64,000 nt of DNA from Oceanobacillus caeni (lineage in GTDB: Bacteria > Bacillota > Bacilli > Bacillales > Amphibacillaceae), in assembly GCF_019037185.1 (NCBI RefSeq), contig NZ_JAHHXM010000001.1, forward strand, positions 1 through 64,000, written 5' to 3'. The notes beneath the pieces are model-generated. The model saw only the letters and a program-made list of their open reading frames with translations. It made no database searches and was not told the origin of the DNA. Position 1 is the first letter of the stretch. Each line of letters begins with the position of its first letter. This document shows positions 28,230 to 53,039 of this stretch, one piece after another. Both the position numbers and the translations under genes were made by a program.

Positions 28230-28259
28230 TAGAAATGAAAAAATATACATATTTTCACT

Positions 28260-28328
28260 CCTTGTAGACAGGCTATTTAAAGGTAGCTGGTAGAAACGTT
28301 CAAGCCATATTCTTGAACTTATACAAGG
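28260..28328 (-). promoter_or_regulatory. Guanine riboswitch aptamer
   Basis: Minus-strand sequence with the purine-riboswitch core. P1 is CCTTGTA with TACAAGG. The P2 arms are GTTCAAG and CTTGAAC around AATATGG. The J2/3 segment GTTTCTACC is intact. P3 follows, and J3/1 reads GTCTA. The C in J3/1, where adenine switches have U, points to guanine/hypoxanthine. With the downstream terminator it should turn the permease gene off when purine is plentiful. Confidence 0.92.
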
Positions 28329-28455
28329 CGATAACTATTATTTTATATAACAGATGAAATGATAACAAGATTATGCCATTACGTCAATTGGGAAAGCTCA
28401 TTAAAATTTCATTTGAATCCTTATTTCTAATGAGGTTCATTGACTTTATACCCAA

Positions 28456-38319: not shown

Positions 38320-39392
38320 CTATTTTTTAAATTTCGCTGCTAAGGCTTCAGCAAGTGCATTATTTTTAAATCCATCATCTTGATCTTTCATGTATTTATT
38401 AATATCTTTTTTAGACACTTTATGCTGCTTCTCTTGACTTCTTCGTTTATTAAATGTTGATACCTTTTCTCGATGACCACATTTACAAACGAATAATTGA
38501 CCATCGCCTTCCCCACGAAGTTCCATTCGTTTATGACAGTTCGGGCATCTTGCATTGGTTTGTTTCGCAATATTTTTCTTATGGCCACAAGAACGATCTT
38601 GACAAACTAACATTCTTCCATGTTTATTTTTCACCTCAAGCATAAGCTTTCCGCATTCCGGACATTTCGTTCCTGTCATGTTATCATGCTTGAAAGTCTC
38701 GTCACTGCTTTTTATTTCTGTAACAATTTGTTTCGTATACCCTTTTATCTCAGAGATAAACTTCTCCTTTTTTAACTTACCTTCCGCAATGGCTTGAAGT
38801 TTTTGCTCCCACTCTGCGGTAAGTACTGGAGACCGTAAATCATCTGGTACAAGATCCAATAGCTGACGACCTTTCGATGTAATGAAAATATGTTTTCCTT
38901 TTAATTCCATATACATACTATTAAAAAGCTTTTCAATAATATCTGCACGTGTTGCAACCGTTCCAATCCCACCAGCTTGATTGATTGTTTTTACTAAATC
39001 TTTTTCTTTTGTATTCATGTATTTAGCTGGATTTTCCATTGCTTGTAATAAGGCACCTTCTGTAAAACGCTCTGGAGGTTTTGTTTCCCCCTCTGTTTGT
39101 TTAAGAACGACAGTAGTAAAAACTTCTCCTTTTTGAATCACCGGTAATCTCTGATCATCCGAAAATTCTTCATCATCAAAACGATTGTCATACACTTCTT
39201 TCCAACCTTGCTTTTTAACTACTTTCCCTTTTGCAACAAATGTTTCTCCATTTATTTCTGCAAAAACAGTAGTCTGTTCATATTCATGTGGATCCGATAA
39301 AACAGCTAAGAAGCGTTTTACAACTAAATCATAAATTTTTCTTTCTTTGTCATTAAGATCTTCTAATACCACTTGCTCTTCTGTTGGAATAA
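38320..39392 (-). CDS. topB: DNA topoisomerase III, exon 2 (C-terminal half)
   Basis: 3' exon of topB. The exon begins with TTATTCC at 39392. Joined to exon 1 it completes the conserved stretch HHAIIPTEEQ. It encodes the rest of the type IA core (LEDLNDKERKIYDLVVKRF; GIGTVATRADIIEKLF) and C-terminal zinc-ribbon pairs (CPECGKLM, CQDRSCG, CPNCHKRM, CKCG). Without splicing, only an internal GTG/ATG-started fragment could be made, lacking the active-site tyrosine. Confidence 0.93.
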
Positions 39393-39453
39393 ATAGGAAT
39401 AGGTAACTTTCTACTTCGGCATTATCCGTTAAGTGTACTCATTTTCCCCTCCT

Positions 39454-39492
39454 CCACACCGTACGTGAAAGTTTCCTCTCATACGGCGTTCC
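39454..39492 (-). ncRNA. Group II intron domain V
   Basis: Minus-strand hairpin with CCGTATGAGAGG, GAAA tetraloop region and CTTTCACGTACGG, the compact catalytic domain that is the best conserved part of group II ribozymes. Confidence 0.9.
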
Positions 39493-39493
39493 A

Positions 39494-39754
39494 TCAAGTA
39501 GTTACAAGATTGATTGGTTCAAGATTACATTGAGTTCGAAGTTTATTTAGCTTGTTAAGAGCTTTTTTATCTTCAATGAGATTGCTGTACTTTTCTATTG
39601 TTTCGGGTTTAGTAGCATGAATAAGTTTATGGACATCTTTATGAACAATTCTAAGATTTTGGTAGCCATCTGTTCCCCCAAGTTCTCTTGGTATGACGTG
39701 ATGACAATGTAGCGTGTCTATAGCAAGATCTATTTTTGTTACTTCACATTTCAT
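39494..39754 (-). CDS. HNH endonuclease domain of the intron protein (split off)
   Basis: 86 residues with LHCHHVIPRELGGTDGYQNL and VHKDVHKLIHA, the HNH fold that group II intron proteins use to nick the second DNA strand. In relatives this domain is the C-terminus of the same polypeptide. Here the reverse transcriptase ends at a TGA overlapping this ATG (ATGA), one base out of frame. One more A in the ACAAAATG run would fuse them into a ~608-aa protein. Either the endonuclease is made by coupled translation or frameshifting, or it is a recent lesion. Confidence 0.85.
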   Translation of the reverse strand: MKCEVTKIDLAIDTLHCHHVIPRELGGTDGYQNLRIVHKDVHKLIHATKPETIEKYSNLIEDKKALNKLNKLRTQCNLEPINLVTT

Positions 39755-41319
39755 TTTGTCATGGAAGCTCTTGAAATTCTATTGTCGTTGTATTCAGCCG
39801 TTTCATATGGATTATAATTTTTCATGAGTTGAATGATGTTATTATTAGTGCTGTTTTCCAATTTCTTAGAGGATTTGTTTCGCCCCTCTTGGGTGTAATC
39901 ACATATGTCTTGGCTGAAATTCATAACTGGTTTGTGTTGAACATGGTCGATTGGATAGATGAAAACCTTGTGAATCTTCCACGTTTTCGCTTTAGAATTT
40001 CCATAGAACTTTTTATACAAAGGTGATAATTCGCTACGTTTAGGTGTTCCATAGTTCGCTACATTTCTTAGTTTGTGGAGCATAAACTTATCCAAAGAGA
40101 AAGCTAATTTAGAGAAGTCAATATTAGCATAGGTAGCACAGCTATAATACTCATGCCAACCTAAAATCATGCTATTCAGCTTAGTCACATGTGAGGATTC
40201 AGGTTGTTTAGCAATTAGCTCAACCTGACTTCGGATTTCATCGCTCATTCGTTTAATTGCTTTGTCTGAAATGTGAGATTGTGCTACATATCCTCCGAAG
40301 GTTTTTCCCTTTTTGACGGCTTTTATTTTGACTCCTAAGAAATCTGAGTAATTTTTACGCAGATTAATAATTTTTGATTTCTCTTCACTTATTTCTAACT
40401 TTAATCTGATATTCAACCACTCTTTTACAGCGGTATAAATTCTTTTGGCGGTGTTGTAATTTCTACACATTATTTTGAAGTCATCGGCGTATCTCACAAT
40501 GTACATTTGTTTCAAGTTTGTTTTCTTTTGTTGATTGTACTGACTTGCATAAGCCTTGTACTTTTTCATAGTTTTAAATGTTTCCCATTGGGATGAAATC
40601 CACCAATCAAGTTCATTAAGGACAATGTTTGATAGTAGAGGGGATAAAATGCCTCCCTGTGGAGTTCCTTTATTTGGTATTCCTTCTCCTTGTATGGGGG
40701 CTTTTAGCATCGCTTTGATTATGCTAATTAGTTTCCTATCTCGAATACCTAATGCATACATTTGTTTAACCAACTTTGTATGATTTACATTATCGAAGAA
40801 TCCTTTTATATCAATATCCACTGTATAGTACATTTTTCCGATATTGATTAAGGACATCATACGAGATATTGCATGTTTGGTACTCCTATTTGGTCGGAAA
40901 CCATAGCTATGCGGATGAAATTTTGCCTCACATATTGGCTCAAGGACTTGTCGAATACTCTGTTGTACCAATCTGTCCACCATTGTCGGTATCCCTAATG
41001 GTCTTTTCTTACCATCTGCTTTTGGAATATAGACTCTTTTAACAGTATCAGGCTTGTAGTTACTTAGATTTGCTTGAACCATTTTAATATAAGAGTCCAA
41101 ATCCTTGTCTTTAATGTCTTTAATTGTAATGTTGTCAACACCCGCTGTTTGACTTCCAGTGTTAGTTTTTATCATTCTAAATGCCAATCGAATATTATTT
41201 TCACTGGTGATGGTGTTCATCAGATTACGAAACGAAAAGTTGTTTTTCGATTTTTGATACAAGTCGTCAAAGACTTGTGTCATCTCATAGTAATCATTAT
41301 ACCTGTATTTGTTCGCCAC
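39751..41319 (-). CDS. ltrA: Group II intron reverse transcriptase/maturase
   Basis: Intron-encoded protein (522 aa) that helps splicing and copies the intron into DNA. RT blocks are visible: VYIPKADGKKRPLGIPTMVDRLVQQ; SYGFRPNRSTKHAI; DIDIKGFFDNVNH; GTPQGGILSPLLSNIVL; and the catalytic YADD in MYIVRYADDFKIM. The maturase (X) and DNA-binding region follows (about 370-500). Start is GTG 41319 with AAAGGAG 13 bases before it. All RT residues look intact. The HNH domain lies in the next, overlapping frame. Confidence 0.95.
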   Translation of the reverse strand: MANKYRYNDYYEMTQVFDDLYQKSKNNFSFRNLMNTITSENNIRLAFRMIKTNTGSQTAGVDNITIKDIKDKDLDSYIKMVQANLSNYKPDTVKRVYIPKADGKKRPLGIPTMVDRLVQQSIRQVLEPICEAKFHPHSYGFRPNRSTKHAISRMMSLINIGKMYYTVDIDIKGFFDNVNHTKLVKQMYALGIRDRKLISIIKAMLKAPIQGEGIPNKGTPQGGILSPLLSNIVLNELDWWISSQWETFKTMKKYKAYASQYNQQKKTNLKQMYIVRYADDFKIMCRNYNTAKRIYTAVKEWLNIRLKLEISEEKSKIINLRKNYSDFLGVKIKAVKKGKTFGGYVAQSHISDKAIKRMSDEIRSQVELIAKQPESSHVTKLNSMILGWHEYYSCATYANIDFSKLAFSLDKFMLHKLRNVANYGTPKRSELSPLYKKFYGNSKAKTWKIHKVFIYPIDHVQHKPVMNFSQDICDYTQEGRNKSSKKLENSTNNNIIQLMKNYNPYETAEYNDNRISRASMTK

Positions 41320-42023
41320 TCTGTTGGGACAACTCCTTTCAAGGATGTTGCTTTCCCTGTCTTACCCGAAAAACAGAGTCATAGTTTGAATCAATCAACT
41401 TGTCCTTACTTGACTTGTGCCTATCCCTCTACAGCTTATTATCACTGCTTCATCGGTACTGTGGCACTACTTTCACCAAGATTAAGTAGCTTATTATACC
41501 ATCTGGCTTTTCGTCTACAACTGTCCTCGACTATGAGTTTCTGTCATGACAGATACAGTTCTTGGCTTCCCACGTTCCAAAGATTCCCGTTAACGCAATA
41601 CTTAGGTGCCTCCTTTGAGCCTGTTAGCTTAATACCGTCATTCGCTCGGTATAGAGTCTTTCATAACGCCAATTCTTACTCAACTCCGCTAACGTACCAA
41701 ATTGGTACTACGTTATCATCACAGATACCGTAACCACCTATAGACTCGTACATTCAGAGGTTCGTCAGTGTATAAACACATTCTCACCATATATTACAAC
41801 CACCCGACTACTCTAAGTGACAGTTCTTAATTCCTGTTCACTTTCGCCGACTTCACCCCGCTTTAAACAGTTCCACCATAGTCTGCTTCCCTGCTTAGGG
41901 GAGTATTAGTGTGAGGGTTTCAGCACAGCATGACGGCTTTCATTCCCCTCAAGGATTCTTCAGTTTTCTACTAAACCATCCCAACTGATATTTCTATCAG
42001 AATTTCAGGTTAACGTGTCGCAC

Positions 42024-43125
42024 TGGCATGGTGATCAGATACCTTTGCATTATCTACTACCGATTTTGGAAGTTTAAAATCCTTTTGCAATAGTTTTCCT
42101 GCCATTTTGGCGTATTGATCCACTCCACAAGCTTTTAAGCGATCCTTCAAGGTTGGAACAATATCCGTTGATATAACACGAGAATCTGTTCGTGGATATG
42201 TTAAAACTTTGTGTTGTTCATACAGTTTTTGCATGATGGATAACGTTTGTTTCCCTGAAAAGTTAAAGATACGGTTTGCATCTCGTTGTAATTCTGTTAA
42301 ATCATATAATTGGGGTGCAAATTTTTTCTTAGAAGTTTGATTAATTTGAACCACTTTTGCGGACTGGCTTTTCAATTTTTCTAGTAGTCTGTCGGCTTTT
42401 TCTTTAGAAAACATGCGTTGATTCTTTTTATCATCTTGCCAAATAAATTTGAAACCTTTATTCGTTTTCGCTTCAATTCCATAAAATTTCCGAGGCTGGA
42501 ATTCTTTAATCTCTTTCTCACGTTGGGCAACCATTTCTAATGTTGGTGTTTGAACTCGGCCACTAGAAAGCTGAGCATTAAATTTAGTTGTTAATGCTCT
42601 TGTAGCATTTAACCCTACATACCAATCCGCTTCTGACCGAGCTACAGCTGAAGCATATAAATTTTCGTATTGTTTACCTGGTTTTAAGTGTTTAAATCCA
42701 TTTCGTATCGCCTTATCTGTTACTGATGAAATCCATAAGCGCTTCACTGGTTTATTGACACGTGCTTTTTCCAAAATCCAGCGTGCAACAAGTTCTCCTT
42801 CTCTCCCTGCATCTGTAGCAATAACAATTTCTGAAACATCTTTTCTATTTAATTGTGTTTTTACCGCATTGAATTGTTTACCAGTTTTTTTCATGACTAC
42901 TAGCTTCAGATGATTCGGAAGCATTGGTAAGTCATCCAGTTTCCACGATTTATATTTATCATCATAGGCTTCCGGATCCGCTAATGTCACCAAATGTCCT
43001 AATGCCCACGTCACAATATATTTAGATCCTTCTATAAATCCGTTCCCTTTTTTATGACAATTTAATACTCTCGCTATATCTCGACCAACAGATGGTTTTT
43101 CTGCTAGTACAACTGTTTTACTCAT
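42024..43125 (-). CDS. topB: DNA topoisomerase III, exon 1 (N-terminal half)
   Basis: 5' exon of topB, a type IA topoisomerase that unlinks single-stranded or decatenates DNA. It has the Toprim domain (VLAEKPSVGRDIARVL; TDAGREGELVARWI) and the active-site tyrosine in LTYPRTDSRVIS. It stops at VSDHHA, where the intron begins. Start is ATG 43125 (MSKTVVLAEKPS), with AAAGGA about 12 bases upstream; the earlier in-frame ATG at 43155 lacks a site. Spliced length is 724 aa, as in B. subtilis (727). Confidence 0.94.
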
Positions 43126-45910: not shown

Positions 45911-46232
45911 GTTGCACAAGAGTAACAACTAAGTGTTCTGGCATTCTACAATGTTTTTGAAGATGCTTATTCACACTGGCGCGTCTAAGGGGACGCAAGG
46001 ACGTAAGAGCAGGTAGGGCTTACGTTGTTAAGTTAGAGAACATAAAATAAATTAGCAAAAGCCCCTGTTATATAGGCAGAAGGATAGCTTAGCTATAACG
46101 GTGTAGATAATGTACCGCGGTTAATTAATGAATCATGCTGAATTTTCCTAAAAGAATCGGAATTAAAAATAAAAAAACTTATGTGTTACTTTTAATCAAA
46201 GGGGGTACTCTTATAATAGGGTACCCCCTTTT
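45911..46232 (+). ncRNA. Candidate structured RNA or leader upstream of cvfB
   Basis: About 320 nt lie between a strong promoter and a terminator with no open frame. Local pairings include GCGTC/GACGC at about 45980-45996, ACGTAAG/CTTACGT at about 46001-46025, and a possible long-range AAGCCC/GGGCTT pairing. The core of about 45970-46125 is GC-richer than its surroundings. It does not match the purine, SAM, TPP, FMN, c-di-GMP-I, c-di-AMP, M-box or T-box cores that I know. It could be a cvfB attenuator or a free-standing sRNA. Confidence 0.55.
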
Positions 46233-52783: not shown

Positions 52784-53039
52784 TACAGAGTGTGTTCAAA
52801 AAGGAGGATGAAAAGGACCGAGGTCGGCTAAGTGCGCAACGTCCTGGGGCTCCGATTACTCGCCCCACCGTAAAGATTTGTTGCAACGCCGACACTAGCA
52901 CGTCCTGTGCGTCGCAGTTCGAGGCGGCGAAGCTTTTAGGAACGGAACGTATGCAATTAATACGTGAGTATCCGAAAAGTGAGCCAACGAAGAAATGCGA
53001 AGTGTCATTTTCACCGGACTTTTTGAACATCCTCTTGTA
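52784..53039. mobile_element. MITE-like element (family C)
   Basis: 256 bp bounded by imperfect inverted repeats: TACAGAGTGTGTTCAAAAAG on the left and, reverse-complemented, TACAAGAGGATGTTCAAAAAG on the right. The interior is much more GC-rich than its neighbours (CTGGGGCTCCGATTACTCGCC) and encodes no known protein. An internal fragment recurs at 5976-6016. It is inserted between oppF and oppB and overlaps the oppF 3' end. Confidence 0.82.

Follow-up and report, generated by a model that had tools for sequence, protein, structure and literature searches.

A group II intron in topB of Oceanobacillus caeni belongs to a lineage that occupies one TopB site in six genomes and may carry a codon-tolerant guide

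We analyzed a stretch of 64,000 nucleotides of Oceanobacillus caeni DNA (assembly GCF_019037185.1, contig NZ_JAHHXM010000001.1, positions 1 to 64,000; hereafter the window), in which topB, the gene for topoisomerase III, is interrupted by a group II intron. Very probably, this intron represents a mobile retro-intron lineage that homes to the TopB motif in which VSDH(H/Y)A, before the insertion, is followed by IIPTE, that uses a codon-tolerant guide to do so, and whose splicing restores TopB. In the mechanism we propose, the lariat RNA would find the topB site through two exon-binding sites, EBS1 and EBS2; where the third base of an Asp or His codon faces a G, as in the window copy, this pairing would survive synonymous changes; such codon-tolerant pairing would allow the lineage to enter diverged TopB orthologs and a second TopB type; and after insertion the intron would splice and restore TopB, so that the insertion would be tolerated.

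The whole of topB spans positions 43125..38320 on the minus strand, with an interruption of 2631 nt. Exon 1 (42024..43125, minus strand) includes the Toprim and YPRTDS region and comprises 367 codons, up to HHA, plus the first base of an Ile codon. It is followed by the intron (39393..42023, minus strand; GTGCG...AT), inserted in phase 1, and by exon 2 (38320..39392, minus strand), which continues the frame. Joined across the split codon (GCC-A before the intron, TT-ATT after it), the exons form an open frame of 2175 nt, or 724 codons and a stop, which reads VSDHHAIIPTEE and scores 875.9 bits against TIGR01056 (cut-off 515.75), whereas the unspliced frames score 508.6 and 340.1 bits, each below the cut-off; translation of unspliced RNA would stop at 371 residues. 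A sequence-only reading of this DNA had claimed that a group II intron splits topB at an exact, frame-restoring position, that the GCC-A/TT-ATT junction rebuilds HHAIIPTE, that the two intron ends are GTGCG and AT, with an intact domain V, and that neither unspliced half is complete. Its coordinates and numbers were right, and the joined frame, these scores and the domain match described below bear out each of its points.

Empty sites are the rule in the genus. The gene was present in all 28 congeneric genomes, the window's own included, and uninterrupted in the 27 others, every one of which carries the motif (S/T)DHHAIIPTE at the empty site; the sequence-only reading had proposed looking for such a site in close relatives. 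In the nearest relative (genome G023), the sequences that flank the intron abut exactly at the DNA level, with no base lost or duplicated, and the spliced window TopB is 96% identical to its counterpart over 724 residues, gap-free. Because all 27 relatives are uninterrupted and the G023 flanks align to the last base on each side, chance is excluded. The assembly is a draft of 87 contigs, and one could suppose that an artifact or a contaminant was joined into topB; however, the insertion is base-exact, lies on a 312-kb contig with collinear flanks, and is matched in other assemblies by introns of this type at the identical position, so that we give this explanation almost no weight.

The intron has the anatomy of a group II element. 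Its ends agree with 5′ GUGYG and 3′ AY. The 5′ domain matches RF02004 (group-II-D1D4-5) at 41793..41968 on the minus strand with 77.6 bits, and domains 5 and 6 match RF00029 at 39393..39491 on the same strand with 62.9 bits (gathering cut-off 40), over model positions 1-77/77 and with no non-standard pair marked. This match ends exactly on the last intron base, 39393, and an A located 8 nt before the 3′ end, as read by eye from the alignment, is a candidate for the bulged branch point of domain 6. Domain 5, domain 6 and a 5′ domain whose EBS pair with intron-binding sites (IBS) in the exon, all expected of a group II intron, are present. The intron-encoded protein has a reverse transcriptase (RT)/maturase part of 522 aa (39751..41319, minus strand; TIGR04416, 355.9 bits, cut-off 300; PF00078), which is under purifying selection (ratio of nonsynonymous to synonymous substitution rates, dN/dS = 0.149, compared with its closest relative, L037). 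An HNH endonuclease piece of 86 aa (39494..39754, minus strand; PF01844, 27.6 bits, cut-off 21.4) is detached and lies in a different frame, which shares four bases (39751-39754) with that of the RT/maturase. Of the parts expected of a mobile group II intron with an endonuclease-bearing protein (ML, CL or B lineage), the RT/maturase is in place but does not share one frame with the endonuclease, a split that the sequence-only reading had not mentioned.

The same topB position is occupied elsewhere. We found 55 relatives in genome contigs, and the four closest (L037 to L040; 98, 79, 75 and 68% identical), hosted by Bacillus sp. 522_BSPC, Metalysinibacillus jejuensis, Paenibacillus terrae and Domibacillus indicus, all sit at this position in topB. 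A sixth same-site case came from a genome (G954) of the family to which the Metalysinibacillus genome belongs; the six occupied genomes are those of the window, L037, L038, L039, L040 and L144. The joined frame is restored in four of the five cases outside the window, namely those with both exons; the contig of L039 ends within the intron. The Paenibacillus and Domibacillus hosts (L039 and L040) have another TopB type (SDHYA), whose exon-1 proteins share 33–35% identity with that of the window, 31–32% with a topoisomerase-III-like paralog on contig C16 of the window's genome (described below), and 47% between themselves. In a quick tree that took in five of the six topB intron proteins, these formed one clade, with a support of 99 in the Shimodaira–Hasegawa-like approximate likelihood ratio test (SH-aLRT).

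The window and Bacillus sp. 522_BSPC introns are identical at 2584 of 2624 compared positions (98.5%), whereas identity between the host proteins is 54.5% for exon 1 and 40.3% for exon 2, with 106/160 matches in the first 160 nt of exon 2. This disparity shows recent horizontal transfer. Synonymous divergence (dS) in the gene for the intron-encoded protein is 0.065 between the window and L037, far lower than that of topB between the window and G023 (0.69 and 0.58 for the two exons), which probably places the insertion after the divergence from G023. The exon dN/dS values relative to G023, 0.026 and 0.040, are for this reason weak evidence: with an insertion that is probably recent, we dropped them as proof of splicing.

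In L037–L040 the intron protein is continuous (607–608 codons, or 625 with an earlier start), and in L144 it has a premature stop within the HNH part. The endonuclease is damaged in two of the six topB introns (the window and L144, by separate lesions) and the RT/maturase in none. These lesions only suggest a drift towards splicing without mobility; we set them aside as a sign of selection for splicing alone, the locus set being biased by its RT query. Overall, 68 of 92 loci were scored as intact; four of the other 24 lie at contig edges and some have a single stop, possibly the terminal one. Several copies outside topB (L053, L058 and L125) also break near the RT/endonuclease border. As a separate observation, in two same-site loci (L038:7862-7928 and L144:2836-2902, minus) the reading frame of topB exon 2 stays open back into the last part of the intron, with a GTG start in domain 5; a C-terminal half of TopB could in principle be made from their unspliced RNA.

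Sister introns lie in further genes. Branching next to the topB group is a dnaE intron from genome G624 (60% identical), where the joined frame reads KMDFLGLRNLS and the two gene pieces score 489.9 and 462.3 bits against TIGR00594. After it come introns on Priestia megaterium plasmids (58%), which interrupt the reverse-transcriptase gene of a different group II intron; the portion of that gene upstream of the insertion scores 140 bits against TIGR04416. When the intron start was tied to the interrupted upstream frame with any phase allowed, 29 of 31 listed loci were in phase 1; the exceptions were L103, in phase 0, and L120, which was misread in this listing and is in phase 1, and L054 had an additional, weaker phase-0 frame. 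The targets differ, and the codon phase may be inherited when the intron is retargeted. We scanned the upstream pieces of ten introns, nine from these 31 loci plus L175 from IMG/VR. They matched a Toprim topoisomerase (L175), a ribonucleotide reductase (L084), a helicase (L083), an anaerobic ribonucleotide reductase (L087) and NlpC/P60 (L069), and, barely over the cut-off, an FtsK/HerA-like ATPase (L077) and a conjugative coupling protein (L086); those of L057, L045 and L076 gave no family match. The L175 contig thus has a related intron in a Toprim-bearing topoisomerase-like gene (L175:1244-1754), at a different motif that ends in SDWIIGM before the insertion. Paenibacillus terrae also has another relative of the intron protein (L142, G901:C44), 60% identical over residues 3–349 and inside a 699-codon open frame.

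To locate EBS1, we aligned the 5′ ends of nine introns and asked at which of the alignable columns they are complementary to the six exon bases that precede the intron. One column stood out, with a mean of 5.78 of six positions paired, as opposed to 4.22 for the next; none of 500 random sets reached this value. EBS1 and IBS1 covary between targets: TGGCGT/ATGCCA and TCGCGT/ACGCGA in topB, GTCCTA/TAGGGT in dnaE, and CGAAGC/GTTTCG in the RT gene. In the window, EBS1 (TGGCGT) is at 41666..41671 and its partner IBS1 (ATGCCA) at 42024..42029 in exon 1; EBS2 (GGTGGTT), from complementarity scans, is at 41732..41738 and pairs with IBS2 (GATCACC) at 42030..42036 in exon 1, all on the minus strand. In the window EBS, a G faces the third base of the Asp codon and of each of the two His codons. 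Because of these G residues, all 14 differences at positions −5, −8 and −11 among the 27 empty topB sites stay paired with the window EBS.

This pattern extends beyond topB. The wobble question arose from the introns of the discovery set, and introns within the family are not fully independent. From 31 introns we left out nine, all with DPKG or DPKS targets, in which the ungapped six-base EBS1 paired at fewer than five positions; the remaining 22 gave 15 unique EBS1–motif pairs, three of them topB variants. For validation we took 100 loci, the best 40 of 80 IMG/VR loci together with 60 earlier loci. In 22 of them a 5′ end with an EBS1 paired at ≥5 of six positions was found, and in 78 it was not; 14 of the 22 had a phase-1 frame of ≥35 codons and gave nine unique new cases, and the other eight, without a clear phase-1 frame, gave seven unique controls, including L103, whose frame is phase 0 but which was treated as phase 1.

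At exon bases T and G, wobble and Watson–Crick pairs numbered 13:1 at two-fold degenerate third positions versus 1:18 at non-third positions in the discovery set (p 3e-7), and 5:0 versus 0:12 in the validation set (p 2e-4). The EBS1 base itself was G or U opposite 20/21 two-fold third positions in discovery and 12/12 in validation (pooled 32/33, from 24 pairs), as against 26/45 and 15/27 non-third positions (pooled 41/72; Fisher p 8e-6). Opposite the third base of Met or Trp codons it was never G or U (0/3 and 0/1; pooled 0/4), and opposite the first base of the split codon it was G or U in 8/15 and 3/9 cases. The controls, scored in the same way, had G or U at three of eight two-fold third positions and a wobble:Watson–Crick ratio of 1:5. 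When EBS1 and EBS2 were scored together over the topB, dnaE and RT targets, in a post hoc comparison set by hand, G or U faced 12/12 third positions and 12/26 others (p 0.001). We found the EBS2 column but dropped it as a second test in all 31 introns, the pairing being shorter and shifted in many of them. As for the nine introns left out, eight of them (L052, L054, L055, L059, L060, L079, L082 and L088) have one or two extra EBS1-loop bases, and L085 is unaligned there; the extra bases possibly face exon position −2, as if skipping a synonymous position.

With G or U at 32 of 33 two-fold third positions, the guide appears to tolerate synonymous change. We consider it moderately likely that in this class of group II introns the exon-binding sites form a codon-aware guide, so that the RNA would in effect recognize an amino-acid motif, tied to one codon phase, and spread in the manner of inteins among orthologs and paralogs of conserved genes (topB, dnaE, ribonucleotide reductases and conjugation ATPases). 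In the same reading, and with the same degree of confidence, the guide would use G against two-codon boxes ending in pyrimidines, U against those ending in purines, and C against Met or Trp third positions. The pattern could instead be passive, the guide being unadapted and synonymous drift of the host after insertion having been tolerated only where it kept G–U pairs, as splicing was needed. Such drift would also yield G–U pairs at third positions, and topB differs at exactly these positions among the empty sites. By itself, however, host drift should leave the base composition of the guide unchanged, and yet G or U is found at nearly all two-fold third positions, at little more than half of the non-third ones and opposite no Met or Trp third base; we regard passive drift as the less probable account, though one to be taken seriously. 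A further possible account is that suitable guides simply survived, with no active adaptation.

Several observations weigh against a mobile lineage with a codon-tolerant guide. EBS1 of L039 and L040 pairs at five of six positions, and EBS2 of L040 at about four of six. The window EBS1 fails at −2, the four-fold degenerate position of Ala (GCN), in 19 of the 27 empty sites. Four-fold third positions are off the wobble rule, with G or U at 4/6 in discovery and 2/4 in validation (6/10), as is the single Ile third position of the validation set (0/1). The lineage is also rare, by counts that are lower bounds, as only the best few candidates per genome were scored, in samples some of which were subsets of larger groups. 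At E 1e-172, no genome but that of the window had a match among 397 of its order, only the window and the dnaE intron were found among 398 genomes of the class, and three carrier families had 2/261, 1/354 and 1/193 genomes with a match, carriers included. At E 1e-150, 159 genomes of the window's family held no other match above 52% identity. The case for splicing and homing is drawn from DNA sequence, and the split protein makes full mobility of the window copy doubtful. We infer that introns of this lineage splice and home in vivo, and also that the window copy, whose endonuclease piece lies in another frame, has little mobility left and mainly splices.

The sequence-only reading had held that the cell probably depends on splicing for full-length TopB. 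Retention of topB in 28 of 28 genomes, uninterrupted in 27, and the apparent conservation of both exons speak for dependence, though with so recent an insertion the exons may tell little. A genome search for type IA topoisomerases found topA, the split topB and, on contig C16, a full-length topoisomerase-III-like gene of 721 aa, 32% identical to TopB and, at 483.9 bits, somewhat under the TIGR01056 cut-off of 515.75. This paralog is present in 25 of the 28 genomes, the window's own included (24 of 27 relatives). Its neighbors, named by eye from sequence starts, are catalase-like, NADH-dehydrogenase-like and cytochrome-oxidase-like, and since they look chromosomal we rejected the idea of a mobile-element copy. 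The second intact topB that the earlier reading had named as counting against it therefore exists in part: the C16 gene is complete but falls below the cut-off. E. coli topB null mutants are viable, as are B. subtilis topA topB nulls in which topo IV is overproduced (PMC7140829). The C16 gene and these viable nulls weaken the claim of dependence.

One could go further and suppose that the intron splices poorly, that topB is broken and that the C16 paralog took over. A second topoisomerase-III-like gene does exist, the intron protein is split, and Ll.LtrB lowers the expression of its host gene (PMC6003770). Yet the topB exons are intact with low dN/dS, the ribozyme parts and the RT/maturase are intact, both exons are open also in L037, L038, L040 and L144, and topB is likewise intact in the 24 relatives that have the paralog as well, all of which makes a broken topB improbable. 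In our view the intron splices and the cell makes TopB, possibly at a reduced level as for Ll.LtrB, but we do not hold that the cell would die without intron splicing.

Ll.LtrB has an endonuclease-bearing protein, and its essential target bases coincide with conserved residues; its homing into conserved relaxase motifs was reportedly described by Staddon et al. in 2004. Like the topB intron, Ll.LtrB interrupts a coding gene, the Lactococcus relaxase gene ltrB, and pairs with the mRNA through EBS–IBS contacts (PMC6003770), but its host gene is on a conjugative plasmid, whereas the topB lineage occupies a chromosomal topoisomerase gene in several hosts and two TopB types. Group II introns in bacteria rarely interrupt housekeeping genes (PMC4424553, PMC3522654, PMC6003770), which agrees with the premise of the sequence-only reading that they usually avoid conserved genes; exceptions are known (PMC4424553). 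One such exception, also in Bacillales, is the recA intron of Geobacillus kaustophilus (Chee and Takami 2005, cited in PMC4424553 and PMC3522654), which differs in the gene concerned. Introns also interrupt the topoisomerase III gene on enterococcal elements (Tn7086, PMC13055272; pE35048-oc, PMC6142821), but those topB genes are borne on plasmids or transposons and cut after about 115–120 residues, as opposed to a chromosomal gene cut after residue 367, and the Tn7086 topB is treated as disrupted (PMC13055272). Survival by targeting conserved protein sites, as in the topB lineage, was the subject of a 2009 paper (Swithers et al., PMC2814812), in which group II introns had no conserved-site preference (combined p = 0.49), the opposite of what we see here.

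Within the literature searched, in the parts available, we found no description of a codon rule for EBS. As far as our searches go, the chromosomal topB lineage, the occupancy of the same site in six genomes and the codon-aware guide are new. They describe one lineage that turns up repeatedly, in different families and TopB types, at a site fixed to the residue within a conserved gene for DNA topology, and whose guide fits the genetic code. Should this hold more widely, it would explain how a guide that works by base pairing keeps up with its target as synonymous positions drift, and protein motifs could be used to predict homing sites, which can be checked on introns already in databases.

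Elsewhere in the window, RNA family matches were found to a purine riboswitch (28245-28346, minus strand), BsrC RNA (45951-46037, minus strand) and Bacillaceae-1 RNA (52809-52911, plus strand).

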